DNA from: Owenia fusiformis
Taxonomy: Eukaryota; Annelida; Polychaeta; Sabellida; Oweniidae
NCBI GenBank assembly: GCA_903813345.2
Contig: CAIIXF020000010.1
Location: 14,629,181-14,693,180, forward strand
Direction of reading: 5' to 3'
Length of the DNA stretch: 64,000 nucleotides
Within the stretch, counting starts at the first letter, position 1, and each line of letters opens with the position of its first letter. The notes under the pieces were generated by a model that was not told the origin of the DNA, did not search any database, and saw only the letters and a list, made by a program, of their open reading frames with translations. Below are positions 61 to 53,957 of this stretch, in pieces. The translations under genes and the position numbers were made by a program.

Positions 61-235
61 TATTGTGATGACATATTGTTATAGTCTCAAACTTTTTGTG
101 GCTGTGGTTGGTGTTTGTCTGTTGAGTTCAGCATTAGGGTGTCTGTAACAAATGGTAGGTCAGGCGTGTAATCACATCCCTTGGCTACGCTTATATAGGT
201 GGTGACATTTTGCATGTTATGCCTTGTTGTTATTC
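61..235 (+). repeat. Short copy of the hairpin-headed dispersed element (R1)
   Basis: The left side carries GATGACATATTGTTATAGTC (67-86). The right side carries GGTGGTGACATTTTGCATG (198-216) followed by TTATGCCTTGTT. The same end pair flanks the large tandem-repeat element at 19206-21852 and, inverted, the copy at 33690-33788. This copy has no tandem core, only about 170 bp, and the first hairpin arm is missing or eroded. It is recognised only by comparison with the other copies in this window. Confidence 0.6.
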
Positions 236-19100: not shown

Positions 19101-22100
19101 TCTGTCAAAGATCTGCAAATTAACAGAAATGATAATTATTATACAATATTGTTATAATTCCATAAATAATTATGCACATATTTTCGATTCATTTTCTGTC
19201 TAATTATGTCACCACCAAAAGTGGTGACATATTGTTATGGTCTCCGTTTCTTTGCGACGGCGGTTGGTTGTTGGCGTCCTACGGTTGGCGTCCGGCGGTT
19301 GGTGGTTGGAGGTTGGCGTCCGGCGTCTGTAACAATTTCTTACAACTTCCTATAACTTAACAAATACTGTTTAGACTGACTTCAATTTTTTCTAAATCAT
19401 CTACATGTTCTCAGAAGTTCAAATCTGACTTTAGATTTGACATTTGACCTTCAATGACCTTCTCAAGGTCAAAAAGGTCTTTTTTCATCTTGCTTCACAT
19501 TGACTAAATTTTTTTTCAAAATCATCTACATGTTCTCAGAAATTCAAATCTGACTTTAGATTTGACATTTGACCTTCAAATCTGACTTTAGATTTGACAT
19601 TTGACCTTCAATGACCTTCTCAAGGTCAAAAAAGCTCAAAAAGGTCTGTTTTCAACTTGCTTCAAATTGACTTAATATTTTTTTCAAAATCATCTACGTG
19701 TTCTCAGAAATTCAAATCTGACTTAAGATTTGACATTTGAACTTCAATGACCTTCTCAAGGTCAAGAAAGCTCAAAAAGGTCTGTTTTCAACTTGCTTCA
19801 AATTGACTAAAAAAAATTTTCAAAGTCATCTACGTGTTCTCATGAATTCAAATCTGACTTTAGATTTGACTTAAGATTTGACATTTGACCTATAATGACC
19901 TTCTCAAAGTCAAAAAAGGTCAAAAAGGTCTTTTTTCAACTTGCTTCAAATTGACTAAATCTTTTTTTCAAAATCATCTACATGTTCTCAGAAATTCAAA
20001 TCTGACATTAGATTTGACATTTGACCTTCAATGACCTTCTCAAGGTCAAAAAAGGTCAAAAAGGTCTGTTTTCAACTTGCTTCAAATTGACTAAATTTTT
20101 TTTTCAAAATCATCTACGTGTTCTCAGAAATTCAAATCTGACTTAAAATTTGACTTAAGATTTGACATTTGACCTTCAATGACCTTCTCAAGGTCAAAAA
20201 AGGTCAAAAAGGTCTGTTTTCAACTTGCTTCAAATTGACTAAAAAAAATTTTTCAAAATCATCTACGTGTTCTCAGAAATTCAAATCTGACTTTAGATTT
20301 GACTTAAGATTTGACATTTGACCTTCAATGACCTTCTCAAAGTCAAAAAAGGTCAAAAAGGTCTTTTTTCAACTTGCTTCAAATTGACTAATTTTTTTTT
20401 TCAAAATCATCTACATGTTCTCAGAAATTCAAATCTGACTTTAGATTTGACATTTGACCTTTAATGACCTTCTCAAGGTCAAAAAAGGTCAAAAAGGTCT
20501 GTTTTCAACTTGCTTCAAATTGACTAAAAAAAATTTTCAAAATCATCTCTGGTTCTCAGAAATTCAAATCTGACTTTAGATTTGACTTAAGATTTGACAT
20601 TTGACCTTCAATGACCTTCTCAAAGTCAAAAAAGGTCAAAAAGGTCTTTTTTCAACTTGCTTCAAATTGACTAAATATTTTTTTCAAAATCATCTACATG
20701 TTCTCAGAAATTCAAATCTGACTTTAGATTTGACATTTGACCTTCAATGACCTTCTCAATGTCAAAAAAGGTCAAAAAGGTATTTTTTCATCTTGCTTCA
20801 AATTGACTAAATTTTTTTTCAAAATCATCTACATGTTCTCAGAAATTCAAATATGACTTTAGATTTGACTTTAGATTTGACATTTGACCTTCAATGACCT
20901 TCTCAAGGTCAAAAAAGGTCAAAAAGGTCTTTTTTCAACTTGCTTCAAATTGACTAATCTTTTTTTTTCAAAATCATCTACATGTTCTCAGAAATTCAAA
21001 TCTGACTAAATTTTTTTTTCAAAATCATCTACATGTTCTCAGAAATTCAAATCTGACATTAGATTTGACATTTGACCTTCAATGACCTTCTCAAGGTCAA
21101 AAAAGGTCAAAAAGGTCTGTTTTCAACTTGCTTCAAATTGACTAAATTTTTTTTTCAAAATCATCTACGTGTTCTCAGAAATTCAAATCTGACTTAAAAT
21201 TTGACTTAAGATTTGACATTTGACCTTCAATGACCTTCTCAAGGTCAAAAAAGGTCAAAAAGGTCTGTTTTCAACTTGCTTCAAATTGACTAAATTTTTT
21301 TTCAAAATCATCTACATGTTCTCAGAAATTCAAATCTGACTTGAGATTTGAGATTTGACATTTGACCTTCAATGACCTTCTCAATGTCAAAAAAGGTCAA
21401 AAAGGTATTTTTTCATCTTGCTTCTAATTGACTAAATTTTTTTCAAAATCATCTACATGTTCTCAGAAATTCAAATATGACTTTAGATTTGACTTTAGAT
21501 TTGACATTTGACCTTCAATGACCTTCTCAAGGTCAAAAAAGGTCAAAAAGGTCTTTTTTCAACTTGCTTCAAATTGACTAATCTTTTTTTTCAAAATCAT
21601 CTACATGTTCTCAGAAATTCAAATCTGACTTTAGATTTGACATTTGACCTTCAATGACCTTCTCAAGGTCAAAAAGGTCTGTTTTCAACTTGCTTCAAAT
21701 TGACCAAATTTTTTTTTCAAAATCATCTACATCTTTTCAGAAGTTCAAATTTGACTTTACAAGTTCTCAGAAATTCAAATCTGACTTAAGTTTGAACTCA
21801 TAATATTGTGAGCAACTAGGTGGTGACATTTTGTCATGTTAATGCCTTGTTATTTTTATATAATCTACATACATGTACACTGTATTTTGAAGATAGACAA
21901 GAAATAACAAAAAGATATATCTTGCCTTCAAAAGTAACATCTCATTGAATGTCTACATTATTTGTCCGAAATCATAAGAAATAATTTTCATTTTTCAGGA
22001 ATGTGGGGTTTCCATGATCGTTTGCTTACATTGCGAAAGACTCTGCTTGTGACGATGACTAATAGCGATACAAAAAGTGCCTTTAGACGCCGGTGGAGAT

Positions 22101-25100
22101 GGCATACTGAGCAGTCAAATAAACAGGTATATTGTTGTTTTATCTATTTTCCAGTTAATGTCAATAAATGTGAATATCAATAAGTTTATTGTTGTAACTC
22201 CGTAAAAATATTTTAACAGTTTGTATGGTTTGTTCAGCTGGGCAGATTTGACAGTTCATTTTGCGCTTAGTCCTCTTTTTTCAAATCATATAAGCAGTGT
22301 GAGGGAACCAGGGTAACTTATAACTTATAGGTGGAAGTAACCTCGGTAATCTTCATTCATACTCAAAGGAGGATTGGCAGCCTGACTGCAACATCAATAT
22401 TCTCTAACAAAGCTAGCGTCAGTCCTGGAGTAATATTTCTCAGTTCAAAATTTGAATTGCAAATTTTGGTCTTATTACCAAACAAAAAATTCAAAACACA
22501 CATGAAATGATCAAGATCATTAGTTTAAATATTTCAAATTTTGATTGTGAATTTACAGCCAGGTAAATATCGACAATAATGACGCCAGCTTTGTTGGAGA
22601 ATATCTTTAATACTCCCTGCAGTTGGAGAAATATACAGGCATGATCGGCAATATTGCATTACTTGGAGATTAAAGAATATCGAGTTGGAACCCTGGCTTT
22701 CAATCCTCCATGTTCATACTCATATCTGTCCTGCTAAATCATTCATTTTCACCATCTATATGACATGAAGTTTTGTTTTAACATCCTTTATGCAGATACT
22801 TTACCATTTATTTCTCCCAGTCACATCAGCAGGATTGGTCAGCACAATTGTTTCACTTTTTTAAACAACAATGTTTGACATAACATGGATGAATTGAATT
22901 GTTATGAGAAAAACTATTGTGAAATACTGTAAAACGGGTAATTTTGACACCGGAAAATTTTAGCGATTTTTTTCAATTTTAGGGGGTTTTAGTGCGGGAA
23001 ATTTTAGCGAAATGAAGATTAATCTTTAAAAAATCAAATTAGCGAAATGCATTAGAAATTTTATCATTTATGGCAGAAGAATGAATAACGGACATGACAG
23101 AGGAATTATCAAAATGTAAGACTTCTAACGCACATGGTATTGGTCCAAACTGGATGGATGGCTATTTATCCTTCAGATATTGAAAGAAACATACGATTTA
23201 AAAATATTTACCTTTTTCAAATTACAAACCTGGAAGTCGAGCATTGAACGAAAAGCTCCTTAAATACTAGTATTCATGTAGTTTCCCGGGAATTTTCAAA
23301 TTTTAGCGCCCGGTTTAATTTAACCCCGGTTTATTTTAGCGAATTGAATTTTTAGCGAAACTATAGCGATCGCTAACAATCGCTAACAATTACCCCTCGC
23401 TAACAATACCCGTTTTACAGTAGTATTTTCCATCCATTTGAAATATTTATCACCTAAGGATTTAAGCCCTGGACTCACTGTTTGTGAACATTATTTTATG
23501 AACTGCTGTCATGTAAAAATACTGTGTTCAGATTGGCTGGAATCGGACACACCTTGCCTAGCCATGTGTGAATAATCATCTCATTTCATGTCATGTTTTG
23601 AAATCCAAATAATTTTATCGGAATTAAGGAAGGAATTGTTGTGACAATGGCTATAATGTGTTGATGTATGCTTGTGTTGATTGCAGTCAGAACTGGTTCT
23701 GTCCGAGGAAGAGTGGGACACTGAGTGGCAGAGTCTGTTGAACCTTGCATCTACCAGCCCCAAGACACATACAGGCAAAAGAGGGAGCTGTTGTGACAGC
23801 CCAGCAACTCACGGGTAATTTAAAATTATTTTATCAAAGAGCTCAATTTCTAAGTTTGACCCCAAATTCCCGAAGACCTAACACATTGTCACTAAAAATA
23901 CCCAAACTGCATCCATAACCATGACAAATAACAAAAAATAGAAGTCATATTGTTTGATGCACGCTAAAACATATTTATAACCGCACCCCTGAGAGTATAG
24001 ATGGTACTTTTGAAGTAAGCCATTTGAGAGAAAAACTAATTTTACTTATTTAAAAGTTCATTTTGGTCTCAAAATCTTGTCTACACATTTCATTGGTCAT
24101 AATGATATCAAACTATACAATCATTGTAATATTGCCAAACAGTAGTATATTATAACATTTCTACATGTTAGGTTCAAGGATCCAATATTCTTCACCCTTT
24201 GTTTTCTCCATATTAATCCTTGGTAGATAAACTTTCCAAATTATGTACTTGAACAGGTAAGTTCTCATTTGATACTTTTGAAATATTTTAGAATTATCAG
24301 GAATCAGAATCATAACAAATGAAGTCAGAGGAATGATATCATTTAATTTTGAATAAACACATAAAATGTTGTTCTTCATCTTTATTACAAGTTGTACATT
24401 TCCTTATTTAGAGCTTTATGAAAACCTCAACAATAGCTCCAAGTCCCAATATGTAACTGGTGTGAACTTGATCTTTATCTTGCTTTAAGATACAGTACTA
24501 TATTTTACTATTCAAAGGCGGTTTTATTTTTTAGTATATCATCACCTGATGTTAGGCATTGGTCATTGGTGTCAGCATATGTAACAAATTGCTACACTTT
24601 TGTAACCATTTATAACAACAGCAGCCTAACATAAAAACATTTTAAGTACAGTATCACATCATTTTCAGAAGTCCCCAGATAATTTTGAACTGTTCTGTAA
24701 AACCAATATTATCTCATAACATAACAGTCCACGTTCCAGTTACTCCGAATCCTGTAGTGAACTGTACTGCGTTCACAGAATGCGGAGATGGATCATCCCA
24801 CTGCAGGAATGTGTCTGTACCATACACATGGCCCTTGCCCACCTCTATATAACCATCTGCCCAACTAATCTAAAATTAAAAATTGGATATATGACAACTT
24901 AGTGTTTAGGTGTTATTATTGAAAACTCTAAGCCTGCACAGTAACTTAAACTACCACAATGACATATGTACAAGGACAATGACTTTTAATGAGGTGTTCA
25001 CTTGTGTATTGTAGGTACAGGAAAACACTTGGTGAAGCTTGGCTTACAAATTTGACATCTATGACCTTCGTATTACCCTATGATCGATTTTCAAAAATAT

Positions 25101-28100
25101 TGTTGAGAACAGTGATTTGATTGAATTAATTTCTTACCCAAAATGAAGTTGTGGCATCACAGAAAACAATTTGTTCATTATGAGAAACCTTCAGGCTCCC
25201 CTGCCTTTCATCTCTTATAGCCGAAGTCTTTGTGGTAGAATCCCAACCTTGGAGCAATATCTCATAGGTGTCAACATCAAGGTTTCCTGCAGTCTTTGAA
25301 AGTTGGACATGTCCATCATGGCACGCTTGTACATCAAATGTGAAAAAGTCTTTGCCAGTAACGTCTATTGGTGTATGTGTGAAGTAATAGTCGTTCGGGG
25401 TAATAATTGGTACTGTAATGTAAATTTGATATGGTTATGATATAATATATACGGGATATATATCTTTATCATTTTAAGTTATCTACATGAATTAGTGCTG
25501 GTAATGATGGCAGCAAGTTGATGTAAATGTTATCATATTCTATCGGAGTGATTTCAATTTTAAATCCTTTCTTCCTATAATAACTATTAACACCAGTGTT
25601 TGGGTCTAAGAGATCATAACTTTATTTCTTTAAACACACACATATTAACAAATAAAACTCACAACACATGACATTATGTCAACACAGTATGATCCCTATT
25701 TATAAAGCAGAAAACATCAATTAACTTGTGGAACTACTGATGCAACTACACATTTATGTATAATATGACAAAAGGGTGGGAGGGGGGGGGCCTGAATTTT
25801 TTACTTCCTGTACAAAAGTTGCTACTGGTTAGGAATATTCATATTGTGTTTTAGCACAATCAGGCACCTGGCACAACCCACCCATCCATCCATATTTAAT
25901 CTCAATTCTTCACAGAATATCATTTAAATCCTTTCTTCCTATAATAACTATTAACACCAGTGTTTGGGTCTAAGAGATCATAACTTTATTTCTTTAAACA
26001 CACACATATTAACAAATAAAACTCCAACTACCCAAACACTGAAAAAAAAGAAAAGAAAGGAAGAAAGTGGTAGATGTAAATTAAGTATTAGGATGCCGAA
26101 CCTATACCCTACGATGTCAAATTATAAAACAGACAGTTTTGCTTTAGCACTGAATTGCTTACAATATTTCAGTTGAACATTAGATGGTATTTCATCAAGG
26201 TAACCTAAATAAGCCATACTCTTCCAATCCCCCATACCTTTAATTATTTCTCCAGGTATTCCACATGACATTGCAAAAACAGCGGAGCCCCTTCGAAAGC
26301 TATGAGTTCCAAACTTAGAACTGTCTTTACCAAAGCTCTTAAGAGAACTCTTGAATTTCTTTGCAAAACACTGGCCTGTGAAAGGCTTACCTGATTGGGG
26401 GTTTACAAATAATGGATCTGACATGCATTTAACTGGTGTTTTTGCCATTGCAATTGACAATGCACTAACAGGACATAATTTGTGAGGATACGTGTTTACC
26501 AAATGCACTACTCTTGACTTCTCTTTGTATTGATTATTCTTGGCCCATTTTACTGACAATTGTATGTTACCTTGATTGTCAATTTTAACTGAGTTCCTAC
26601 AAAATTGTTTTTCATTGTTAAACCCACCTACAGTATCAGGCATCAAATTTGATTTTCTGAACATTCCATAAAACAACACGAGGCAAATAGCCCAAAAAAC
26701 ACAATCAAGGGTATCACATAGATCTAATGTATCTTTCATTTGTGACAATAAAGTGGGGGTAACTGGTTCTTTTTTATGAACTTCAGCACCAAGTTGCCTT
26801 TTTATCCCCATCAATGTTGATTTAACTAGCCAACTATCTTTATAAGGGTGCTCAAATCCACATTCCAAGTGAATAAGTCTCACAATATTGAGATATTGTG
26901 GTATGCTCGTGTATTTCAAACGTCTTGCTAAATAAGCAGCATATTCAGCAACAGTCTCTTCTGTTACTGGGACAGGTTGTAATCCAAGTTCATTACAGAA
27001 ACGCAAATACGAATTACGTTGAGAAGAGTATGTTTTCTTTGTATTGTCAGAGAAAGCTTGTAGTCTATACTTTGCTACCTCTTGCTGTAATTCTTCTTTG
27101 AAAGCCAGTGACATACCTGTGGTAATAGAGACAATACAGTTTTCACTGACATATGTTTATGCAACACATGAAACAATACATAGTTGCCATGGAACCAATT
27201 AGACAGCAAACTGCTTAGATGAGATAATTGGCCATATGTATGGAGTCTTGAAATCGTATCAGCCATAATATTCACTTTAGTTCCAATAGATTTCACAGAG
27301 AATGTAAAATTATTCCTGGCACTTGCCCAAAATGTATTTCTAAGCAGTTGCATTATATAATCATTATGATTACACCTCCCTTTATTGACAATGCCCCTGG
27401 CCACTGAACTGTCAGAGTAGATATTGACATGGCAATCTTTCCATAATGTGCCCCATCGATTCACTGCTGCACATATAGCTATAATTTCCTTGTAATTTAT
27501 ATGTAGATGTTTAGCACTTTTCCAATCTAACTCAAAACATATATATTCCCAATCGCCTTGAGAAAATATCCCAGCACCATCACTGCTGGCATCCACAAAT
27601 ACACTGATTACTTCCTTTGTATTATAATACACTGTACCATCGCATATATCCAACATGGCACACCACCACTGGACATCTTTTTTGAATGCCTGAGATAACA
27701 ACACTTTATCTCTACTACCTTTCATCTTCCTGAGATTATCCAATATACGTCGCAGAAAAAATTTGCCTCCACGAACCGCATGTGTTGCATAACTTAAGGA
27801 CCCTACCAACGATTGTAGTTGACGTTTTGATGCACGTTTTTTATTACGAAATAACTCCAACTTGTCACGTAACTTATTTCGTTTTGCCTGGCCTAATGAG
27901 ACCGTACAGTCCACAGTATTGATTTCCACACCTAAGAAGGTAACCATCTGACTTGGTCCACATACTTTAGACCAGTTTATCTGGAACCCAAGTGTCCTCA
28001 ATAGATTAATCAATACATTTAAACACTTTTGACAGTCTGCTGCTGTCTCCTGTACAATGAGAAAGTCATCGAGATACGCTACAATCCCAGAATAGCCTTT

Positions 28101-31100
28101 CCTATTCATGATACGTTTCACTGCTTGTGATATACGTGTAAAAATTGAACATCCTTGATTAGACCCAAAAGGCAATCTGCTATCAAAGATATTAGTCACA
28201 GTTTCATCACCTTGAAATTTCCATTGCAGGCCTGTCATACAATAGTCAATACAAGATATAGGAACACTACGATAGGCATTTTTCAAGTCAATTTTTGCGA
28301 TGAAGTAATTAGGTTTGGCTAAACGTTTTGCTTTATCCAATGTTTCATATTTCACAGAATTACTTTCTGAATAGTCATTCATAGCACAGCCTACAGGTCT
28401 ACTACCATCATGTATAAGTCGAACATCCACTCCACTTGATTTTGGAATCGCCGCAAGTGGACTAACAATTTTTGGAACAGTTTTGGCAATGATATAACAT
28501 CCATGTTTTATTTGGGTTTTCAATTCCTTTTCAACTAATGTCCTATGTTCAAATGCTGACTTGTGGTTTTGCATATATACAGATTTTACTTTCACTTCAT
28601 TATCAATGTCTGTGATTCTAAATCCACTTTTAATACCATTCATTATATAATCATAATCACAATCATTCTTCATTAAACGTTCCCATTCCTCATGCTTAGA
28701 GGATATTGAATAGTAATTACCAAGGAAATCAGTATTACATGGGTCTATCAAACCAAATGGAGACTGTTTATTCTGCGACTGTCTGTCCTATTCATCTTTT
28801 GTACTTGAAGACTCGGTCTTCGGATGATCTTTCCCATGATGTTCACTTTTATTACAGGTTTTGCATTTATGCGCAAACTTGCAGGCGTCCCCATATGAAC
28901 AAGTCCCTTTATTGTTCCATTGATCACAGTACAGTACCCTATTAGATGACCATGTTGAAGTTTTCTTTTTTCCAATGGCATTTGGTTTGTTAAAATCGTT
29001 TTTAGGGGGCCTCCTTTCTAAATGTACCTCTGATAGATGGGGAGTATCCGTTCCCCATCTAAACATGTATACATTTTGTTTTTTCCTATAGTCATCGTCA
29101 TATTTTAACACTGATGGCCATGTATACCTACACGCTAAGTTACCGATCTTTGCAGTATATGCTACATAATCCAAAACATCAATACTGCTCGACAAGAGAT
29201 GTTTACGCATGAGTTCCGCTTGTATTGAAGCATTAGCAGAAACCCATTGTGCTGGGGTCACATTTTCAATTTTTAATTTCGCTGTTTTACGTTTGAATGT
29301 ATATTCTCCAAAATCAATATCTGTGTCCTCCTCATGTTCTAGGCCAGGGACATAGTCAACTATTTTGAGATATGAATTATTACCTTTATCTCCTTTCCTA
29401 AAGAGGTAAACTTGAGGATCCATGTAATCGGCCTGATGGCGTTCTGCAGCTGTAGCTGGTTTGTTGCCAAGTAAGTCTTCGAGAAATTTTAATCCAACCG
29501 TAGCCTCTGTTGATTTTCCTGGCTGAACTTTCGAAATGTCTTCAAGGAGGGGGCCAGTGCCAGCCTCACGTTGTAACTGTTTTACCCCAGCTAGTAGGGA
29601 TCGTATTTCACCTTTTTTCAATGCAACACCGTCCAAATCCTCACTACTCATGTTGATAAGTGAAGAAATGTTGTCAAATCCTTCTGACAAGAGCCACTTT
29701 TGAGAGTCTTCTGTTATTTCAGAGAATTTAATCCACTTATCAAACTCAAATTTTTCCATGATGAGCTTAATTTTACTAACTATTACTAACAAAGATCAGC
29801 TTATTTGCAAATAAAGAGAAAACTACTGAGTAATTCCATATCACATGGCCTGAATTTTTTACTTCCTGTACAAAAGTTGCTACTGGTTAGGAATATTCAT
29901 ATTGTGTTTTAGCACAATCAGGCACCTGGCACAACCCACCCATCCATCCATATTTAATCTCAATTCTTCACAGAATATCATTTTATTTTGACATGATATC
30001 CTATGAATATCACAGTAATTATGGAATTACAAATAAAACATCAAAATATGCTAAATCAATGCATTATTATTATTCATTAATATCAACATAATTATTATGA
30101 TATTATAATATAATTGCTCGCCATTTTGAAAAAATAGGTATTATACCAGGTTGGTTGCATGTTTCTCCAGAGATCCAATGCACACAATCACATATGAAAT
30201 CAAAGGGAGATGTTCCAGTCACTGTGCACGTACCACCATTCTCACATGGACTCTGGACACATGCATCTGTAAACATTGGCATTTGAAAAAAAATATTTAA
30301 AATTAATGGATTAATACATGTACATTGTATACAAAATCTAAGTTGTTGAGTTTTTTGAGGTTTTTTATCCGAAGAGATAATTTGGTCAAGAATTGTCAAT
30401 TATGAAGTGTGAGTTCCAAGATCGTAGAATTTTGTCAAAGTTGCATATTGGTCTTGTTATTCATGGTATTTTTCTTTGCCTGCATTACCATTCATGGTAA
30501 GGTAAAAATATGATATTGCATGTACACAAATTCAATGAATTGAAACAGCATCTGATCTATGCACAGTTCTCTCCTCATTCAATGCTTTTTGGACAGGATG
30601 TACAAAATGTATGTTAGTAATTTAGAATTTCACACAATAGTAACTACTTTGTTTCTATCATTAATTTAGCCTAACCTTAACCAAATTACCTTAGGATTTC
30701 CACTGATAAGTTTGTTTGTCTCGGTTTGTAGAATTTTGTTCTGTTTTGAATTAGTTCTTGATATTTCTGTTCTTAGTTGACACAATATTGATCTCAAGGT
30801 TTGTATTATGGCATTTGTTATCACCATATTAGTCAATATATGGCACAGTTAGATTGATTTTTATTTTTCATGTATTGATTTTCAATTTTCTAATGAAAAA
30901 ATCATGGTGCTGAATATCTAAAATTAAAGGCTGAATGTTTTTAAAAGGGTAGTCAATATCACTTACCACACAAAGGGGCTTCTCCCTCTGAAACCTGAAA
31001 CAATAATTCTAATGATTAATTAGCGATTCCTTCTGCTGGCAAAAATCTGTCAGTGAGTGTAATATATGTGTCTCGTTGCAAATAAGGCATTATTGGCAGG

Positions 31101-34100
31101 AAAAATTTCCATGCATGAAATTTTCGGGAATTTTTTACTTTTCTATTTGGGTGCTTTTTATAATGGTCTGAAGGATGTATTTTCAATTTTCTAAATGCCC
31201 GGGCGCTAATTGCAGAGAATATAGTAAGTATTAACATGGAAGAATGTTTTTATCACACCCTAAGGTGCTATATTGTAATCAGTTTGCCGGGCGGTTGGGC
31301 GGGCGGGCGGTTGGACGGGCGGGCGGTTGGACGGGCGGGCGTCTCGAATAATCTTGTCTATAGGTTTCCAGCCAAACCGTTTGAGGGATTCATTTGAAAT
31401 TCTCAGGGATGTTTCTACCTATGAAAGTTTAGAACTGATTAGTTTTTCGGCATTCTGGGTAAATGTTAAGGCAGCCATTTTGGATTTTCCATCCTAAAAT
31501 CTTGTCTGTCAAGGCTTGTCTACAGGTTTCCAGCCAAACCGTTTGAGGGATTCATTTGGAATTCTCAGGGATGTTTCTACCTATGAAAGTTTAGAACTGA
31601 TTAGTTTTTCGGCATTCTGGGTAAATGTTAAGGTGGCCATTTTGGATTTTCCATCCTAAAATCTTGTCTGTCAAGGCTAATGTCTATAGGTTTCCAGCCA
31701 AACCGTTTGAGGGATTCATTTGGAATTCTCAGGGATGTTTCTGCCTATGAAAGTTTAGAACTGATTAGTTTTTCGGCATTCTGGGTAAATGTTAAGGCGG
31801 CCATTTTGGATTTTCCGTCCTAAAATCTTGTCTTTCAATTGGCTTGTCTACAGGTTTCCAGCCAAACCGTTTGAGGGATTCATTTGAAATTCTCAGGGAT
31901 GTTTCTACCTATGAAAGTTTAGAACTGATTAGTTTTTCGACATTCTGGATAAATGTTAAGACGGCCATTTCTGTTCAAGGGTGCGATATTGTTCACCGTG
32001 TGTATTTTTTGTGGTTCACATCATTCTGAGTTACATTCCATCAACATAAAAACCAATTACAATCGGTAAAATTGATTATCTGTGGATGTGAAAGCTCCCA
32101 AGTAATTTTCGCACCGATCCATATTCTTCAATTGTGAGCTTTTTATCATTTGGCTGTAGTTATAAATGATTTCCAAAAACCATTACAGCTGTTAGCTTCC
32201 TGTTTTCAATGATACCTTTTGGAGAGATGTCTCTATGTTGTTGGACATTTTTTTGAAAATAATTCTTAGCTGATTAGGTTTGGGGCAGACTTTTTGAATG
32301 TTTTAAGAAATGACTGGATGTATTATTTAATTTAGGCCTAATTGGATTTTATTCAAATTGTATTGGTTAATACCTTATTGGCATAGCAAAGCTGCATTTA
32401 AAATGGCAGCATTTTTTGTTAAAAGATGTTCTTTAATTTAAATACGATACGAGTTATGTTATTTTGTCCAAATTTTATAGGATTTTGTCTTATTGGAACA
32501 GGACCTCTGCTCGAGAGGGATTTTCAATATGGCCACTGAATTCAAAACTCAAAGTCTATCCACTTGAGATTTTTGTGCAGTTTTGTAGGTATGGGGCTCT
32601 CCCCAAGAGGGTGTCATGTCACATAAAAGGTGTAGATTTTGCCAAAAGGAGCAACAATACTATTTGTTACAACAAATAATTTTCCATGAGTGCCATTGAT
32701 ACAATGCTAAGATTCTTTGAAACCTTCGTTTATTTGTTTGACAATCAAAATTTTCATGGTTAATCACAACAAGTACATTGACACCTGATCATCCCATAGA
32801 ATGTCATTTGAGTTTTAGACAGATTCAGCCATCACTGTTTGATAAATCATGAAATTAAGTGATTATTGCAAGCTTTTAACATTGAAGTGAATTGCTGTCT
32901 GGCCCAAGCAAAATGAAGAATGACAAGGATGACATCAGTTATTTCAGCTTTAAGCTGTTAGCTTTCAGCTACTTTGTAGACTATAGAAACTATACTATTA
33001 TTTGAGAATTGTTCAAAAATACTACTTCAGACCAAAAACATTCTTACCTGCTTGTAATAGGTCATATCAGTGTTAGGAACTAATGCAGAATTATTTCCTT
33101 CAGCAATACACGGCACCAGATCACATTGTGCCATCCCTGTTTTACCAAGCTCAAAATTGAATGAATAACAATCATCTTTTTTCTCACATAAGAGGCTACA
33201 TTTAAGAGCACTTTTGACAGATCTATTCTCTAGTGTATACCCATCTAAAGACTGGCCGTCAACTCCTTTCTTGAATAAAGTATTAGATGTTGACGATAGT
33301 GAAACACCAATCAAGACCAAAAAATATATAATGTACTTTTTCACTCGTCCCATTGTGATAGGTTCCTTTTTCACTACTCCATGAGCTACTGCTTATTATA
33401 AAAAACCTTAAGATTTCTCCTGTATAAATGTTTTCTCATTATTGGGGCAGTGTATTTTGTATGGTTATAGATTACCCAATAACATTCTTTTATTTTTTGC
33501 ATTTCCTCATCATCGATTACATGTTAATTGAAAATAGGAATGTTTTGATACTACTGAATTAAAGGAGCCATTGTAAGTCTAAACCATATGACATATTTAG
33601 TGATGAAGACCTGGCAATGTATGAAGCAGCTGACTGAGTCTAATCAGTAGTAATAAGATTGTAGCTATGAGAAACTTAGGCATTAACATGCAAAAAATCG
33701 CCACAATTTGTTACAGATTCCAACCCCCAACGCAAATCGTCAACCACCGCCACAAAATGACGGAGACCATAACAATGTGGCGACATAAAAATGAGAAAAA
33801 ATGTACAGTGATTTGTTGTAAACAGGTGCTTTAAGTCATGATTCAAAAAGTTAAGACAAACTTAGTTAGGTGAGGCTTGTGAGAGCCTTTAACATTTGGA
33901 ATAATCAATGGAATAATCAAAACACATTGAATGAAATCTCTATTGATGAATAGACATTCAATACAAAATCTAAGTATGAAGTTGTATTGCTGGGACCTCC
34001 ATTGTGTTTTTTTCAATTATGTAACAGAATCTATGATTCTTTTAATTTGTCAGATACTTGCTTGATTTGAATGGCTATTATTGTTAACTTTTACTGTATA

Positions 34101-37100
34101 CAGTAAAATCTGTCTAATTTGAATGCCTCTGGGATCAGACAAAAGTGTTCGGATTAGCAGGTGTTCACATTTCAAGGTTTATGACTTCATGCAATTACTT
34201 TGCAATATCATATATTAGTTTGAGTTTTCATACACAGAAGTTAAAATTGTTGTTGTCTATCTTCTTTACAACCAAATAGTCCATTCTCCACTTGCTCCAA
34301 ATCCTGAAGTGAACTGTACTGCATTCACAGGATGTGAAAATGGATCATACCACTTCAGGAAGGTTTCTCTACCATACACATGGCCCTTGCCTACCTCTAT
34401 GTAACCACCTGCCCAGCTGATCTAAAATTGAAAATATTGAAATTCGACAAATATTATATGATGTCAAGCAAGGTTTTTCTGACTCAGTAAGTTTAAAATT
34501 AACATTGACTTTTACTGGAACATTGATTTAGAGAAAAAGCTTTGATCAGGGACAGACTTACATAATACATTTTTGTGATCTGACGATTATCATTATTAGA
34601 TGGATTAAAAAAAAGCATTTGAATTTGAATGGAATTGTTTCTCACCCAAAATGCTAATGTGGCATCACAGTATACAACTTGTCCATTATGGTACACTTTG
34701 AGTTTCCCTTGCCTTTTATCTGTTATGGCTGAAGTCTTTGGGCCATTATTCCAACCTTGGAGCAATATCTCATACACTGTAGGTGTCCTTATCAATGTTT
34801 CCTGCTGTCTTTGAAAGCTGGATATGTCCATCGTGGCACGTTCTTACATCAAATGTAAAGAAGTTAGTGCCAGTGACGTCTATTGGCTTGTGCTTGAAGT
34901 CATACTTGTTAGGGGCCGTCCAGATAGTTTTTACTCCTTCATTCAAACAGTTGCCTAGTGCCAGGTGTACCACACATAGTACAATGATGCATACACACAG
35001 CATAATTACCTTTAAATATTATTAAATTCAAATCAGAGTGCAAATCTAGGATGATCAATTTATATTTAGAAAAATAGGTTACTAATATAAAATCAAAACC
35101 CATATACACTAACAATAAGGAAATGAACATTTTGTCTAATTTTAATGTTCCTTTGAGGTATGTGATTTTGCAATGGCATTTTAAAAAGGCAAAAATGGAA
35201 AATACATAAATACTACCATGTCTTGGTCTTTCTGAATTTATACATTGGATATACAATTTTTGAGACAATAAACCCCAACTCTGGAGAGGTACTAACAGAT
35301 TGATTGCTGATTGTATTTGCTTGTACTATCATGGTACTCCTGATGTCTTCATAGTCTGAATGTTTATATGTTTAATGCATATGTCATAAGTGCTTTCATC
35401 CATGGGTGCTTTAAAGTGAGTGTGAATCTATATAGAGTGCACGGGTGTCTGTACTCGGGGACTATAAATGGGCTCAACCAAAGTTTGGCTCAGATAGGTG
35501 TCAGAGGACGGTCGAAACACATGCTTTACAATAATCCATATGCTTGCAAGTCTAACTATGTAACATATTTTATATTGCAAGTACGTATTCAAGATGTTAC
35601 TCATAAGGCATATTTTCATGTATTGAGTTTTGAGTATATATTTTGGATAAATATTGAAAATGTATACTGCATTATTTATCAGACCAACACCACAGGCTGG
35701 TATCGAAACATTTGTCTGCTTTGACGGAGCATGTTATTTTTCATAAAAAAACACTAAGAAAACCACATAATTTGTTTTTAACTCATATGTTTCGTTAAAC
35801 CAAAGAAAATTACTATTCCATGCAATGGATACATCATTTGCGGGTAACTTTCACTTCTGTTTGAAGTCCAATAACGCTGGGAGGAAAAGCTATTGAAAAT
35901 GGTGCCGGAAACAATAGTCTATAGAAACGATTGCAACATATGTTTATTTTCTATAAAATATGTGATAATCAGGGTTTTGTGTCAAATAAATGCCCTTTCA
36001 AATTAGTACATTTCCTTATTTATGTACTTTTTACCCATTTATAGAGAATGATGAAACTTTATGCAGTGCTTTAGTCGTACATTTTTTCTCAAGAGGGGTT
36101 TACCGCCACCTGTCCTTTGAAAAAAATTAAAAATGTGTTAAAATGCATTAATTTATTTGCGAATAATTGATGCTTCTACCGTATCTGTATTTTTACCATT
36201 GTCAACATTTAAAGTTGTAAAAAACACTTAGATTCCATCAAATAACGTCCTTGAAAAAAATTTCCTGGGGAAGCATACCCCCCGACCCCCGCGATACGTG
36301 CATGGCCTTCGGCCGCGCAATCAGGCATCCCTGAGTGTGCGTACCAACTCAAAATATAGCCCTACGCCCATGTTTACAAAGTGTAGATTGAAATGTGATA
36401 TTTTGAATATTTCAGATTTAATTATGGTAATATTTTTATTTCTTTCATAAAACTAATATTAGCGAACCCCCATCGTCGTTATTAAATTCAGAGGGCCATT
36501 GAAATTGATATTTACTCTAATCAAAATGAAATCTTACATAGTAGAGATACATGTAATGCATGATTGTACTTGAAAATGTAGTAAACAGCTAGTTCCATCT
36601 CTAAACATTCCTGGTGACAGAAAGCTCAATTTTCCTAGATGACATTAATGGGGGATTTAAAACATGAAATATTGGGCGGTTCGCTAATATTTGTTTTATA
36701 AAAGAAATAAAAATAGAACCATAATTAAATCTTAAATACTCAATAGATTACAATTCAATCTACACTATGAAAAAGAAATCAAAATTGTTGGTGACATTGA
36801 TAACGTCCAAATAAGGCGACAAACTCATTCTCCAAACCGAGAATGGTTCTTTATAGGTACATATATCAGTTAATGATATTTTATATGGAAAATATTAATC
36901 GCTATAACCAGAAAACGATCAACCATATTCAAACATAAGAGATCCGGTTGTGTAGTTGAACAAACGTTTAGGGTATGATATGAATATTTTATTATTTTTT
37001 TATGATTTTTTATTTGAAAAACAAAGGATGTATTCTTCGAAAATCCACCCATAAATTGAGCTGCAAGACCACATCACAATATATATGTCATGTGGTTAAA

Positions 37101-40100
37101 CAGGGTATACATGTAATTAAATGCATAGGAATATATGCAGAACGCTTAATGATATTCATTTATATGGAAAATATTAATCGCTATAATCAGAAAAATGAAA
37201 ATGCATACAAAATGTTATTGCCATACTCAAATGATCTTACAAAAGAATGCAGAGGTGACATCTACGTGTAAAAGAGATTAAGATGATTGGAACTAGGCCT
37301 AAAAATTACTTTACATTAAAGTGTGTATTTTTTATCGCACTTTGCTATATTGTCGTCGTCTTGTGCTGTTGGGCGGGCGTGCGGGCGGGCGGGACATAAA
37401 CCAAATCTTGTCATCAAATTTCCAGGATAACTGCATACCTGTTCAACTTGAAATTTTTACAGATGCAAGAGCAGACTAGTACCAAAATCTGATTAGGTTA
37501 AGGGCATGCTGGGTAAACTATGTGGCGGCCATTTTGAATTTTTCAACAAATCTTGTCATCAAAATTCCAGGAAAACCACTTATCAGTTCAACTTGAAATT
37601 TTTACAGATGCAAGAGCAGACTATTGCCAAGATCTGATTAGGTTTTGGGTATGCTGGCTGAATTACATGGTGGCCATTTTGAATTTTTCAATTTGGCGGC
37701 CATTTTGAATTTTTCAACTTGCTCCAAATTGACCCAATTTTTTTCAAAAACATCTACAAGTTCTCAGAAGTTCAAATCTGACCTTAGATTTCAGATTTGA
37801 ACTTTCATTCACCTTCAGTGACCTTGAAAAGGTCAAAAAAGTTGATTTTCTAAATTGATATTTTGGATTTAAATTTAGGTCAGCTTAATTACAAAACACC
37901 TACTGAGGTCTGAAAAAGTTAAATTTTCAACGTCGAAGGTCAAGGTCATTAAACTAGGTCACAAATGATGTTATCCAAGTTTCTCAAAGTTTGAGACTAC
38001 AAATCAATTCTTGTCATCAAAATTCCAAGAAAACCGCTAACCTGTTCAACTTGAAATTTTTACACAAGCAATAGCAGACTAGTTCCAAGATCTGATTAGG
38101 TTAAGGGCATGCTGGGTAAACTACGTGGCAGCCATTTTGAATTTTTCAACAAATCTTGTCATCAAATTTCCAGGAAAACCACTTATCCGTTCAACTTGAA
38201 ATTTTTACACATGCAAGAGCAGACTATTGCCAAGATCTGATTAGGTTTTGGGTATGCTGGCTGAATTACATGGTGGCCATTTTGAATTTTTCAATTTGGC
38301 GGCCATTTTGAATTTTTCAACTTGCTCCAAATTGACCAAATTTTGTTTTTAAAAACATCTACAAGTTCTCAGAAGTTCAAATCTGACCTTAGATTTCAGA
38401 TTTGACCTTTCGTTGACCTTCAGTCCCCTTGAAAAGGTCAAAAATTTGATTTTCTAAATTGATATTTTGGATTTAAATTTAGGTCAGCTTAATTACAAAA
38501 GACCTACTGAGGTCTGAAAAAGTGAAATTTTCAAGGTCGAAGGTCATCAAATTAGGTAACAAACAATGTTATCTAAATTTTCCCAAAGTTCAAGACTACA
38601 AATAAATTCTTGTCATCAAAATTGCAGGAAAACCGCTGACCTTGTCAACTTGAAATGTTTACAGATGCAAGAGCAGACTAGTGCCAAGGTCTGATTAGGT
38701 TTTGGCCATGCTGGGTAAATTGCATGGTGGCCAGTTTGCTCTTCAAAGTGCGATATTTATCACTGTGTGTCTTGTTTGTATTAAAATCTTAACATCATTC
38801 TGCTTCATATTCAGGCATAAAAAATGGGGGTCACTGACTTTGTTTTTTACTTAAACATAGAAAACATTTTGGTACTCCATGTTAGGGTGTAGGCGAGTAG
38901 GCATGGGCGTAGCGCCTATTACGCAAAATACGCACAGGCGTACCAAATGAATTTGAAAACAATTAAAAATGTGTTAAAATGCATAAATTTATTTGCAAAT
39001 TTATTGATGCTTTAACCTATCGTATCTGTATGTTTACCATTATCAACATTTAAAGTTGATAAAAACGCTTAGATTCCATCAAATAACATCCTTGAAAAAT
39101 ATGCTCCCCCGGACCCCCCGCGATGTGCGGCCTTCGGCCACACAATCAGGCATCCCCGAGTGTGTGTAACAACTCAAAATATAGCCCTACGCCCATGGTA
39201 GGGGATTTAGAGGATGGAATATCTCAAAATCTGAACGATCAGTTTTTTAAAATTTTGCACACATGTTAGTTTATTAAGCATAATTGATCTTAAGAAAATA
39301 AAAATTATACGTCACTGACTACGTTTTTTAATAAAGGTCCTCGAATGAATATTTTTGCGATGGTTTTACATTTTCATTCAACTTATGGAGTGATTAATAT
39401 TCATAAACTTCCTATTATTTACTCTAAAAAGAATCTTCTTGTGTGTCAGACTTTCAGACCAGAAGTACAAAGGGCAACATAAAAATATATAAACTTATTT
39501 TTGCCAATAACCTAATCATACTCATATAAATTATTATGCAAAATAATGATACATTTGTTGTAAAACTATTCAAATCTAATTTCTTCAATAAATCGTCCTT
39601 TTTCCTAGAACACATGTTGATATATAGCTATCAGCTGTACTGTATTTGTAATGTCGATAACAGAAAATTAACACTATTTGAACAGACACCAACAACATAC
39701 ATTTTTATTCTAAATTCCTTTGCTTTGCATTTCATAACCATTAAACAAAAACATTTTCAGCTCATGAATTTATTATAATTTCAGAACAACTATTTGGTAC
39801 AGATCTATCTCTCTTTATCTAATATCCTCTGTAAAGCCAGTAATGTTCACTATTAAACATAGACTGTCCATGTTCCATTTGCTCCAAATCCTGAAGTGAA
39901 CTGCACTGCATTCACAGGATGTGGTGATGGGTCCTTCCACTGCAGGAAGGTATCTCTACCATACACATGGCCCCTGCCCACCTCTATGTAACCACCTGAC
40001 CAGCTAATCTAAAATTTAAAAAGTTGAAATTTTATGAATATTTTTTGATGGCAAATAAGATATATTCTGACTCACTTACTTTTAAACTGTACATTTTTAC

Positions 40101-43100
40101 TGTAACTTTTATTAACCAAAATTACAATTTTTCTGATCTAAATACTATCATTATATAGATTTACAAAGAGCTTTTGAATTTGAATGGAATTGTTTCTCAC
40201 CCAAAATGCTAATGTGGCATCACAGTATACAACTTGCCCAATATGGTACACTTTGAGTTTCCCTTGCCTTTTATCTCTTATGGCTGAAGTCTTTGGGTCA
40301 TTATTCCAACCTTGGAGAAGTATCTCATAGGTGTCCTTATCAAGGTTTCGTGCAGTCTTTGAAAGCTGGATATGTCCATCATGGCATGTTTTTACATTAA
40401 ATGTGATGAAGCTTTTGCCACTGACATCTATTGGTGTGTGCTTGAAGTGATAGTCATTTGGGGTTGAGATTATTTTTAATGGGGCTTCGTACATGTATGT
40501 CCATGTTCCACCTGCTCCAAATCCAGAAGTGAACTGTACTGCGTTCACAGGATGTGGTGATGGATCCTTCCACTGCAGGAAGGTATCTCTACCATACACA
40601 TGGCCCTTGCCTACCTCTATGTAACCACCTGACCAGCTTATCTAAAATTAAAAAAAATTATTAGATAATGAAGTTGTGCAAATCTCTTATCTTTCTGTAT
40701 ATAATGAAACTGAAAGTTTATCTTCGAGCTTGTGGATGGCATTTCAACCAAGTGACAAGACCAAGAGAGTCCATGGTTCAGTTACAAGCTGACTTTTATT
40801 ACGTCCCCACCACATAGTGTGGGGCCATATTGTCCGCCTAGGTGCTTCTGTCTGTCTGTCCGAGAGTTTTGAGTTCTCACAATAAATTATTTAGTAGGTT
40901 TAAAAATAATTACTGGTGTCCTTTACAGAGAAACTCATGTCCCAGTTCACAATAGGTATACAATAATTTTGTTTAAAAAATTGAAAAACAAAAATATATG
41001 TCTGCATTTTTATTGTCGGTAAGTCTTCTTCTTGTTTTCAGGCAAATCATTTTAGGGATCAATTTTCAGGGATGATTCTTAGTATTGTAAACTTTAACTG
41101 ATTATGTTTTGGTGTTCTGGGTATATGTTAAGGCGGCCATTTTGAATTTTCCATCCTAAAATCATGTCTAAAGTGTTGTCTACGCGTTTTCAGGCTGATT
41201 GTTTCACAGATCAATTAAATTTTTCAGGAATGGTTCATAGTATGCAAATCTCGAATCTAATTTTGGATTTTCCATACTATCTTGTCTGTAATGTCTTGTC
41301 TACGCACTTTCAAGCTAATCGTTTCATCAAATTTTGAGGGATGATTTTTAGTATGAAATTCTGGAACTGATTAGGTTTGGGCATTCTAGGTAAATGTTAA
41401 GGTGGCCATTTTGGATTTTCCGTCCTAAAATGTTATGTCATGTGATAGATCCATATAAGGCTTGAAAGATGTATGGAAAGCTAAGGGGAATCCCCGATCC
41501 AAATACCAAAGAATTATGGGAGCCACTCACTTCTTCTGTTATGTAACTCTAGAAGTGATAAGTTTGTATGCCTGGTAAATATTCTACAGCCATTTTTCTT
41601 TCTTGTTTCCATCAATCTCAGTTAGTCTGATTCATCATTAATCACAGATTTGTCAAAGATAATCATTTTCTTACCCAAAATGAAGTTGTGGCATCACAGT
41701 ACACAACTTGTCCATTATGGTACACTTCTAGTTTTCCCTGTCTGCTATCTCTTATGGCTGAAGTCTTTCTGACAGTGTTCCAACCTTGGAGAAGTATCTC
41801 ATAGGTGTTCTTATCAATGTTTCCTGCTGTCTTTGAAAGCTGGATATGCCCATCATGGCATGTTTTTACGTCAAATGTGAAGAAGGTTTTGCCACTGACA
41901 TCTATTGGAGTGTGCTTGAAGTCATAGTTGTTTGGAGTCAAAATTGTTTTTATCTCTGGTTCTGATGTTCCTTTGATTATAATACAAATGTATGAAAACT
42001 ATATATATATTCTTTTATTGACTCCTATATATGTGAGTCTCTCCGACACATGGGTCACTGTACAGTTATTTACATGTGTTTTATATACAAAAAGTCATAA
42101 GCAAAATATAAAAATCATTACAACATGATTCTAATGTAGCGTTGATATCAGACTGAAAACACCTTTTCAAATAGGCTTAACAAACATGATTGCTACAAAA
42201 TGTACATTCTATGATACAAACTAAATTTACAAACATTTACAAACTATGATGCCTTGGGGGACTTGGGGTGTTCGGTACTAGATCAGGGGGGAAATTTCCA
42301 AAAGATCACCTTTCATATTGGTATGTTCGATAACCAATTTTATAAAAAATGCCTCATTTGCCATTGAAATGGATCTCTCAATGTTTGCTTGTGTTCTATG
42401 AGTATTCTCTGAAAGTTTTGATCGTGTAACTTCAATAATATTACCGTAGTTTTGAAATGATAATGTTGAACTGATGTTAAACTGAAAAAACGTCATTTGA
42501 ACGATTTCAAATTTTACTTTGTGCATGCGCTGCACTGAGAAAGAATGTGCTCATGATCGTTCACGTGATCACATCCTGCAATTTGATTGGAGATCTAAAA
42601 CGGGGAATCCCCAAATACGATAGAATATGAAAGAATTATGCGGGAGCCACTCACTTACTGGTACTAGATATTATATATTCCTACATCAAGGCATATGCAA
42701 ATGAGATACAATTCACATCTTGTGGGCATAATATTGTATGGTGCGGTTTTAAAAAACTGCATAATATTGATCTGTGTGCAGCTTGAAAATGACAGGGGTT
42801 GCCTATCAGATATCATTGGAAAAAATGTTAAAGCTGTAATAAATTTTAAGAATTTTACTTCATTTAAAAATCTCTATAAAATTAGGGAACTTCTAAACAT
42901 CCCAAGGTATCATAGATTTCAAATTTTACACAAAAACTCAATATTAAGCATTTAGGTACTAGTAACTAAAATCAGGAATAACCATTACATTAGCCTGGTC
43001 CATAATCGGTAGCTGCATCTACCATTGTTTAGTAGTTAGTAAAGCGCTAGGATGACATACCTTGCTCACCTATCTTTACAATTTCATCTAGTATTGCTTG

Positions 43101-46100
43101 TTTTGTAGCGAGGATTTCAGCTTTTAGTTCTTTTTCCAGTTTAGTTATTTGTTCTGATGTGCAAGTCTTCATCTTCTGTTTCCCTGATGACATATGTACA
43201 GCACATAATACCAAAATGTATATGTGCATGACGGTCACCTGTAAAATCAAATCAAAGTACAGAATCACTAGTAGCAATTGCTTTTTATCGCACTTTGAAA
43301 AAGTGCTATATTGTCGTCGTCTTGTGCTGTTGGGCGGGCGGCACATAAACAATCTTGTCATCAAATTTCCAGGATAACTGCTTACCTGTTCAACTTGAAA
43401 TTTTTACAGATGCAAGAGCAGACTAGTACCAAGATCTGATTAGGTTAAGGGCATGCTGAGTAAACTACGTGGCGGCCATTTTGAATTTTTCAACAAATCT
43501 TGTCATCAAAATTCCAGGAAAACCACTTATCCGTTCAACTTGAAATTTTTACAGATGCAAGAGCAGACTATTGCCAAGATCTGATCAGGTTTTGGGTATG
43601 CTGGCTGAATTACATGGTGGCCATTTTGAATTTTTCAATTTGGTGGCCATTTTGAATTTTTCAACTTGCTCCAAATTGACCCAATTTTTTTTTTAAAAAC
43701 ATCTACAAGTTCTCAGAAGTTCAAATCTGACCTTAGATTTCAGATTTGACCTTTCATTCACCTTCAGTGACCTTGAAAAGGTCAAACAAAAAGTTGATTT
43801 TCTAAATTGATATTTTGGATTTAAATTTAGGTCAGCTTTATTACAAAACACCTACTGAGGTCTGAAAAAGTTAAATTTTCAAGGTCGAAGGTCAAGGTCA
43901 TTTAACTAGGTCACAAATGATGTTATCCAAGTTTCTCAAAGCTTGAGACTACAAATCAATTCTTGTCATCAAAATTCAAAGAAAACCGCTAACCTGTTCA
44001 ACTTGAAATTTTTACACATGCAATAGCAGACTAGTGTTAAGATCTGATTAGGTTAAGGGCATGCTGGGTAAACTATGTGGCGGCCATTTTGAATTTTTCA
44101 ACAAATCTTGTCATCGAAATTCCAGGAAAACCACTTATCCGTTCAACTTGAAATTTTTACAGATGCAAGAGCAGACTATTGCCAAGATCTGATTAGGTTT
44201 TGGGTATGCTGGCTGAATTACATGGTGGCCATTTTGAATGTTTCAATTTGGTGGCCATTTTGAATTTTTCAACTTGCTCCAAATTGACCAATTTTTTTTT
44301 TAAAAAACATCTACAACACTGGTGATCCACTCGATTACGCTGGTTACCAAAACGATTCGTTTTGGTAACAAAATGTCGGAACATCCGGAAGGTACGATTT
44401 TTCTCGTTTCCTTATTTTACACGTTGTAGGCAGAATTCCCACGACATTTTTTAACACAAACGTGTATCAGTATCATATGTTTAAGAAAGTGTACATATTT
44501 GCGAACAAATAGTCCAGAAGACAACAGAATCGTCGATTTACTTCCTCACTTAAGTTACATAAACGGTTTGGGTTAAAAGTGCAGATCTTAACTGTTTTTC
44601 GAAAAACCGTTTATGTAACTTAGGTGAGGAATTAAATCGACGATTCTGTTGTCCTCTGAGCTATTTTTTCGCAAACGTGTACATTTTCTAAAACATATGA
44701 TACTGATGCACGTTGTGAGAAAAAACGTCGTGGGGATTCTGCCTACAACGCGTGAAATAAGGAAAAAAGAAAAATCGTGCCTTCGACGTTCCGACATTTT
44801 GTTACCAAAACGGTTCGTTTTGGTAACCAGCGTAATCGAGTGGATCACCAGTGTACAAGTTCTCAGAAGTTCAAATCTGACCTTAGATTTCTTTGACCTT
44901 CAGTGACCTTGAAAAGGTCAAAAATTTGATTTTCTAAATTGATATTTTGGATTTAAATTTAGGTCAGCTTAATTACAAAAGACCTACTGAGGTCTGAAAA
45001 AGTGAAATTTTCAAGGTCGAAGGTCATCAAATTAGGTCACAAACAATGTTATCTAAATTTTCCCAAAGTTCAAGACTACAAATAAATTCTTGTCATCAAA
45101 ATTGCAGGAAAACCGCTAATCTTGTCAACTTGAAATGTTTACAGATACAAGAGCAGACTAGTGCCAAGGTCTGATTAGGTTTTGGCCATGCTGGGTAAAT
45201 TGCATGGTGGCCTGAGTTTGCTCTTCAAAGTGCGATATTTATCACTGTGTGTCTTGTTGGTATATTTTTAAAATAAGTTGAAGAATTTTTACCTTAAAGC
45301 AGCTGTTGTTTCTTGGAGTCATTTTCCACATTGTCAGTAATCAGTAGTTAACTCTCAACTGCAATATTCATTATTATTTTCATGTGGTTATGTAGTATGG
45401 AAGTAGTCATTCAACCTCATCACCCCTTGTAGGACATTTGAATATTCTAAGCTGAGTAAACTTACCAATATGATTGTGGTTAAAACTAATGTTAAGTCTG
45501 AATGTTTTAAAGTATTTTTCCAACCAAGTTAGGATAAGCACCAGTTATTATCGAGAACTTTTAATTAATTTTTATTCACAGGGCTCCATGAAATTATATT
45601 TTTATATTCTATCTTAAAGTCATAAATGCACCAGCTATTATTATAATGCACCATGTTAAGATCATCCAAAGTTACACTGTTCCTGAAAAATTTCAAACAA
45701 GGAATAAAGCTGAGAAAAAGAACATGGATTTTTCTCTAAAAAAAAGCAATGGTTGTGTAAAAGCATAAAAAGTTGATTGTGTCCTTGAGGGTGTTAGTCA
45801 TGTTAACTATTGTTACCAGATGACATTTTGTAAATAATTTGAAAAAGCATGAAAAAGACAAAATGAATTTTTATTTACAATGGAGAAAATGTGAGACATT
45901 TTCTGTATATATGACTAAGGGGCAGTAAAAACATGAAGGCATTTTAGATTAGACAGGTTTTACTTCATTATAGATGAAATATATTTATAAATCAGTATTG
46001 CTGTCAGAAGGATTTGTTCTGATATTCTTCGCAGTTGTAATTCATACCTTATTTTTGCTGTGTATGGGTATTGAGTAGAGTATGGATACTCTTCTAAATT

Positions 46101-53617: not shown

Positions 53618-53667
53618 CTGTAAATACAGAACACATGATAAGGAACGGGCCAGGTAAGATATAGCAA

Positions 53668-53957
53668 GCATTTTCAAAGAGCTATAACTTAAGTCCTAAA
53701 GACTCTGTGATCACAAAAACAAATGGGTCTGTTAGGTCCATGTATGTGTTATCTTCAATATCAAGCATTTTCAAAGAGCTATAACTTTAGTCCTAAAGAC
53801 TCTGTGACCACAAAAACAAATGGGTCTGTTAGGTCCATGTATGTGTTATCTTCAATATCAAGCATTTTCAAAGAGCTATAACTTTAGTCCTAAAGACTCC
53901 GTGACCACAAAAACAAATGGGTCTGTTAGGTCCATGTACATGTTATCTTCAATATCA
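53668..53957. repeat. Tandem repeat, 97-bp unit, three copies
   Basis: Three copies, at 53668, 53765 and 53862, carry CATTTTCAAAGAGCTATAAC, TAGTCCTAAAGACTCTGTGA, AAATGGGTCTGTTAGGTCCA and TGTTATCTTCAATATCAAG. They are almost identical, so recently expanded, and lie just upstream of a dehydratase-like exon (minus strand). Confidence 0.9.

Follow-up and report, generated by a model that had tools for sequence, protein, structure and literature searches.

Hairpin-headed repeats in a 64-kb window of the Owenia fusiformis genome are very probably non-autonomous Helentron-type transposons, most with satellite cores

Introduction

The stretch of DNA analyzed here (the window, 64,000 nucleotides of the annelid Owenia fusiformis; assembly GCA_903813345.2, contig CAIIXF020000010.1, forward-strand positions 14,629,181 to 14,693,180) contains dispersed repeats that begin with a short hairpin and carry an inverse copy of its arm near the other end. 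A sequence-only reading had listed seven of them as one structurally conserved family and had proposed a relation to Helitron-like elements. Which kind of element do these repeats represent, and are their ends maintained by selection on structure? From the order of their parts and the homology between copies, it is very likely that they are non-autonomous rolling-circle transposons of the Helentron/Helitron2 group (HINE, DINE-1-like, pearl/Cg_HINE type), belonging to about four families, most of them with satellite cores. The kind itself, HINE/Helentron elements carrying satellite DNA, has been described before and the window adds another member. The repeats are thereby named, and several HINE families are found side by side within one 64-kb window.

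Results

All seven listed places were inspected in the sequence. Arms and words were positioned by eye, since automatic alignment of the left ends misplaced the arms, and their presence was then confirmed by exact search of the window. The first left arm is called L1, the second left arm L2 and the right-end copy of the word R. From 5′ to 3′, the parts are a T-run, L1, a loop, L2, ATATTGT, a G-rich or GTCT microsatellite, the core, R, a short palindrome, CTTG and a T (Table 1). The words are ATGTCACCACC (L1), GTGGTGACAT (L2) and GGTGGTGACAT (R) in A; ATCGCACTTTG, AAAGTGC and CAAAGTGCGAT in B2, of which B1 has L1 and R; and ATCACACCCT, AGGTGC and AGGGTGCGAT in C. The short minus-strand copy a33 has L1 GTCGCCAC and R GTGGCGAT, a61 has L2 GTGATGAC and R GGTGGTGAC, and the hairpin of D is CCCCAC..GTGGGG.

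Table 1. Elements detected in the window (positions of the window; L1, L2, first and second left arm)
Element	Position	Strand	Left end	Core	Right end
A	19206..21849	+	hairpin 19206-19230, box to 19235, G-rich microsatellite ~19270-19325	~136-bp satellite units 19386-21742	word 21819-21829; CTTG ends at 21849, then TT
a61	65..226	+	L2 65-72, L1 lost	none (short family A copy)	198-226; CTTG, then TT
a33	33675..33791	-	L1 kept, L2 lost	none (short family A copy)	CTAAG replaces CTTG
B1	37329..38774	+	T-run 37329-37333, L1 37334-37344, L2 lost	composite: C-like and A-like units	38742-38774
B2	43282..45256	+	T-run, L1 43287-43297, L2 43300-43306	composite as in B1; broken by nested fold-back element	45224-45256
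C	31247..32007	+	31247-31276 with 4-bp hairpin; 16-bp G-rich microsatellite 31288-31341	164-bp units 31353-31970	from 31978; ATTT replaces CTTG
D	40794..41434	+	hairpin 40805-40824, ATATTGT, GTCT microsatellite	three diverged C-like units	
a54	54730..54771	-	hairpin fused directly to family-A right tail		CTTG end, then TA

The subterminal inverted repeats (subTIRs) formed by L1 and R are exact over 11 bp in A, 12 bp in B1 and 14 bp in B2, match at 10 of 11 positions in C and are shorter in a33. A second inverted repeat lies beside the 5′ subTIR in A, B2, D and, weakly, C (4/7). The left end is followed by a microsatellite (G-rich 14-16-bp or GTCT repeats) and then by the core in A, B1, B2, C and D. 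Five of seven right ends (A, a61, B1, B2, a54; not a33 and C) end exactly with CTTG; the next base is T in all five and TT follows in four, which is consistent with a preference for T as target. The word comes after TTTTTAT in B1, B2, C and a33. In A, B1 and B2, the right repeat is situated about 20 nt inward of CTTG.

The earlier description was correct in that the repeats are real, that the longer copies (A, B1, B2, C, and D with its three diverged units) have tandem cores and that a61 and a33 lack them. The copies are not seven independent cases, and the description went too far in assigning a left hairpin to each: the hairpin is present in A, B2, D and weakly in C, while three of the seven have lost one arm. 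The inverse right-end copy holds for A, a61, a33, B1, B2 and C. For D, the words tried revealed no right copy from 40.7 to 44 kb, the sole GTGGGG there being D's own left arm; since a further repeat (41435-41538, with a related inverted copy at 7577-7679) starts exactly at its end, D may have been truncated by this repeat. An eighth copy, a54, had not been listed.

As far as sequence comparison goes, the homology of the ends between separate copies is the firm evidence, and loose statistics over the whole window are weak. The left end of A is 77% identical to that of a61 and 82% to that of a33; its right end shares 90%, 86% and 88% with a61, a33 and a54, respectively. The B1 and B2 ends are 86% (left) and 96% (right) identical, and over their aligned bases, nested insert excluded, the two elements agree at 97.5%. 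Even C and B1 have related ends (74% left, 79% right). B1/B2, A/a61/a33 and the C/B ends align, and the listed copies amount to about four families whose ends are partly related.

With the arrays masked, a loose scan of both strands for triples (inverted word ≥ 8 bp, inner partner ≥ 5 bp) yielded 190 hits (92 + 98); in 40 simulated windows, the mean was 147 and the maximum 184. With the YATTGT box added, five triples remained, against 47 in total in the 40 simulations (maximum 5), and only two of the five are listed elements (A, B2). The excess is small and not confined to the elements. A stem of at least 6 bp with ATATTGT directly behind it was found at three of 36 sites (A, B2, D), compared to 14 in the 40 simulated windows; for stems of 5 bp or more the numbers were four and 35. 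A de novo scan requiring exact 8-bp words for all three copies recovered only A among the listed elements, and its 9-bp version was swamped by the A array.

DNA folding of the left ends gave z values of -5.3 (A), -3.4 (B2), -2.0 (D), -1.0 (C), -0.6 (a33) and 0.1 (B1), with 0, 1, 11, 29, 50 and 92 of 200 shuffles being equally good. For the right ends, the corresponding numbers of shuffles were 12 in A, which is marginal, and 55 in C, 65 in B2 and 94 in a33; the fold of a54 was equalled by 3/200. When each left end was aligned in inverse orientation with its own right end, A (4 of 1000 shuffles as good), a33 (3), B1 (0) and B2 (0) stood out.

Covariation of the ends was assessed by eye. From family A to a33, L1 changes from GTCACCAC to GTCGCCAC and R from GTGGTGAC to GTGGCGAT, so that one change is compensated and the other yields a G-T pair. 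Two compensated changes separate the homologous ends of B and C: CACTT in L1 of B corresponds to CACCC in C, and AAGTG in R of B to GGGTG in C. L2 shares the first of them, as does the downstream arm of the right palindrome (AGTG-N10-CACT in B, GGTG-N10-CACC in C); L2 has no counterpart of the second, and a further change in L1 (ATCGC to ATCAC) is not mirrored in R. In a cross table of inverted scores, A and a33 fitted best with their own right ends and B1 and B2 with B right ends, while the left end of C scored 11 with the right end of A and 9 with its own, and a61, having no L1, fitted a33 and A better than itself. These data suggest that the similarity of L1 and R is maintained, as it is in every subTIR. 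Of the previous claim that the words differ between families but keep their inverse relation within each element, the difference between the A and B ends and compensation at a few positions (A versus a33, B versus C) held up, while the C left end, by which the words of different families are not wholly unrelated, and the uncompensated changes in L1 and L2 did not fit. Selection on structure is plausible; given the few copies, the few covarying positions and the exceptions it is not proven, nor is selection on the hairpin, which three of seven copies have lost.

The left and right ends are also related in direct orientation. In A, L2 and the adjacent bases (GTGGTGACATATTGTTATG) are a direct copy of R and the adjacent bases (GTGGTGACATTTTGTCATG) at 17 of 19 positions. 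The same comparison gave 12/13 for B2 (AAAGTGCTATATT and AAAGTGCGATATT) and 12/13 for C (GGTGCTATATTGT and GGTGCGATATTGT). The likeness of the words themselves is forced, because the word pairs with L1; this does not apply to the bases behind it. Of the eight bases after the word, six agree in A, five in B2 and seven in C, levels reached by 17 of 1195, 19 of 219 and 3 of 219 background sites, respectively, the background for A being rough as it was taken after GAC and not GACAT. Direct scores of whole ends were reached by 0 (A), 31 (a61), 427 (a33), 236 (B1), 66 (B2) and 28 (C) of 1000 shuffles. There is moderate support, B and C being related, for L2 plus ATATTGT as a direct copy of the right end. 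The copy a54, for which the words tried detected no left end within 4 kb upstream, looks like a deletion product between L2 and R, although it is a single case.

The cores connect families with different ends. At the score cut-off used, the units of A and C have no mutual similarity. The core of family B nevertheless joins both types, although the A and B ends differ. In B1, C-like pieces (57/75, 48/61, 59/79, 48/61 and 39/48 identities per alignment columns) and A-like pieces (53/61, 70/91, 54/61 and 70/92) were identified, and a B stretch matches the A units with an E value of 6e-20. Two C-like pieces followed by an A-like stretch recur at about 603 bp in B1 and about 606 bp in B2. The C-like pieces of D align at 116/147, 29/33 and 92/107. 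Nested in the B2 core, a fold-back element (44317-44853) with long inverted arms and ends CACTGGTGATCC is flanked by a 5-bp direct repeat, TACAA (44312-44316, 44854-44858).

Scans for open reading frames (ORFs) revealed no protein-coding capacity inside the elements. Since Helentrons can carry OTU domains (PMC4067079), ORFs at 46098-48836, just downstream of B2, which match an OTU domain and OTUD7B, were considered as a Helentron part; they fit a host gene like OTUD7B instead. The left-end patterns had one and nine matches in viral contigs (L001; L002-L010). In the latter nine, a check for stems ahead of the motif showed one of 5 bp (L003), and the tail word ATGCCTTG was present in L005 and L010 alone, at a distance of thousands of bases. 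All ten were taken as chance matches. A core pattern matched one bacterial contig (L011), the likeness extending over 21-23 bases only. A full-text literature search for a left-end word returned no paper.

Further features lie between or beside the elements. Three minus-strand ORFs at 26122-29795 match RVT_1 (E 4e-17), weakly RNase H and a phage-integrase SAM-like domain, and a CCCH finger; we take them to be probably a DIRS-like retrotransposon, whose repeats may be represented by two identical stretches near 25625 and 25989. ORFs with a farnesoic acid O-methyltransferase domain were found on the minus strand at 25129-25434, 34502-34843, 40138-40641 and 41666-41998; in the larger Pfam scan the domain appeared in 5 of 86 ORFs, the match at 34502 being below the curated cut-off. 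The window also harbors about 82 copies of a 32-bp satellite unit (3275-5886), three nearly identical 97-bp tandem copies (53661-53957) and an open frame for a rhodopsin-type seven-helix receptor (55268-56248; 7tm_1, E 2.5e-38).

Discussion

The assignment of the repeats to the HINE type is based on the fact that the same plan has been published for oyster Cg_HINE and for elements of mites, mosquitoes and flies. The relation to HINE/Helentron, which the sequence-only reading had called plausible, is supported, since the published anatomy matches part by part (PMC7492417, PMC4067079, PMC2374699). By analogy with this family, the elements would be mobilized in trans: most likely, their ends are bound by a Rep/helicase that an autonomous element at another place in the genome encodes, and it would then nick one strand and peel off and copy the element. 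Copying would stop near the right palindrome and CTTG, and the copy would be joined beside T residues, presumably without a target duplication.

Several observations weigh against this assignment. No Rep or helicase family was detected with Pfam (E 0.01) among 94 ORFs of at least 72 aa, a set of 8 + 86 ORFs of the window outside the 3275-5886 satellite, in which smaller or broken pieces would be missed. The right-end patterns of families A and B had no match in viral contigs or prokaryote genomes, and two core patterns none in viral contigs; the collections searched thus contained no relative. The 3′ palindromes are short and were spotted by eye, and the folds of those in B2, C and a33 do not surpass shuffled sequences. 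Neither C (74/1000 shuffles as good) nor a61 (362/1000) has a significant inverted score. Neither candidate for an empty site within the window is usable: for C, a related repeat (16227-16396) stops short of the left end, and for D, a relative exists of the right flank only. Finally, the distance of the right repeat from the end is about 20 nt, compared to about 38-60 in the mite HINEs (PMC4067079).

Of the alternatives, it is unlikely that the same elements are moved by Helitron2 without the Helentron endonuclease, which would make HINE a loose name. The oyster study could not tie an autonomous Helentron to its HINEs (PMC7492417), which would agree with this explanation; however, the satellite cores, the microsatellite and the T target are those reported for HINEs (PMC7492417, PMC2374699). 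Canonical Helitrons, defined by 5′ TC, 3′ CTRR and insertion between A and T (PMC4067079), were rejected because the ends in the window are a T-run and CTTG, with T as the next base. It is very improbable that the repeats are miniature inverted-repeat transposable elements (MITEs) moved by a DDE transposase acting at terminal inverted repeats, with the satellite cores being secondary. Inverted repeats at both ends and the lack of coding capacity would suit MITEs, and on similar grounds DINE-1 was once classed as such (PMC2374699). On the other hand, the right repeat does not lie at the very end, MITEs are characterized neither by a second left arm nor by a fixed CTTG tail, and inspection of the flanks, made without empty-site comparison, showed no duplication apart from T runs. 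Coincidence among unrelated satellites and palindromes would accommodate the unspecific loose scan, with its two elements among five boxed triples, and the poor left-end folds of C, B1 and a33, but is hardly credible since the ends align between separate insertions with different flanks, the A and B2 hairpins have z values of -5.3 and -3.4, and boxed stems of at least 6 bp number three compared to 0.35 per simulated window.

Within the HINE-type assignment, the composite core of B exemplifies the presence of satellite units between different end pairs. In the oyster, a satellite cluster goes with a specific end pair but not vice versa (PMC7492417), and the A-like units between B ends hence depart from this rule. 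The composite may have arisen by capture, by recombination between elements or from a shared genomic satellite, and it bears on the spread and assembly of satellite DNA by rolling-circle elements. Presumably, a rolling-circle enzyme requires sites on the same strand at either end. It is conceivable, albeit rather doubtful, that in this genome satellite units pass from one Helentron family to another whose ends differ and that the working end signal is a direct repeat, the word plus ATATTGT, located just inside the left end and at the right end. If this were true, the signal would be as expected for one Rep protein nicking the same strand at both ends, and recombination between the direct copies would delete the interior and leave minimal hairpin-plus-tail relics such as a54. 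Novelty of the B-type composites and of the direct-repeat reading is claimed only as far as the literature was searched.

Cg_HINE of Crassostrea gigas is among the closest known systems. It has a 5′ subTIR of 11-12 bp, after 1-12 bp an inverted repeat (IR) of 7-12 bp, a microsatellite that is often GTCY, and then satellite repeats, a 3′ subTIR and a palindrome, with a T-rich target (PMC7492417). The window elements resemble it in the order of parts, the subTIR and IR lengths, the satellite units, an apparently T-rich target, the occurrence of double-array elements and the GTCY-like microsatellite of D; unlike Cg_HINE, B joins units that occur separately in C and A, the comparison being one of plan and not of sequence (PMC7492417). 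L2 corresponds to the IR of Cg_HINE and to the partial inverted repeat of DINE-1 (PMC7492417, PMC2374699, PMC4067079). With the DINE-1/HINE elements of flies, mites and mosquitoes, the window elements share a subTIR of about 13 bp with a partial inverted repeat beside its 5′ copy, the microsatellite, central repeats, a possible 3′ stem-loop and an apparent preference for TT, while the words differ and the right palindromes in the window are short and weak (PMC2374699, PMC4067079). The bivalve elements pearl (CvA, CvE, CvG), DTC84 and MgE are, by their description, likewise HINE-like with short arrays of about 160-bp repeats (PMC7492417, PMC11136912). Even the Helitron2 elements FoHeli1/2 of Fusarium, which, unlike the window elements, are autonomous, begin with TCAG or similar and end with ATTTT, start with a terminal hairpin at the 5′ end, the arm of which is found again, in inverse orientation, within a hairpin close to the 3′ end (PMC5148889).

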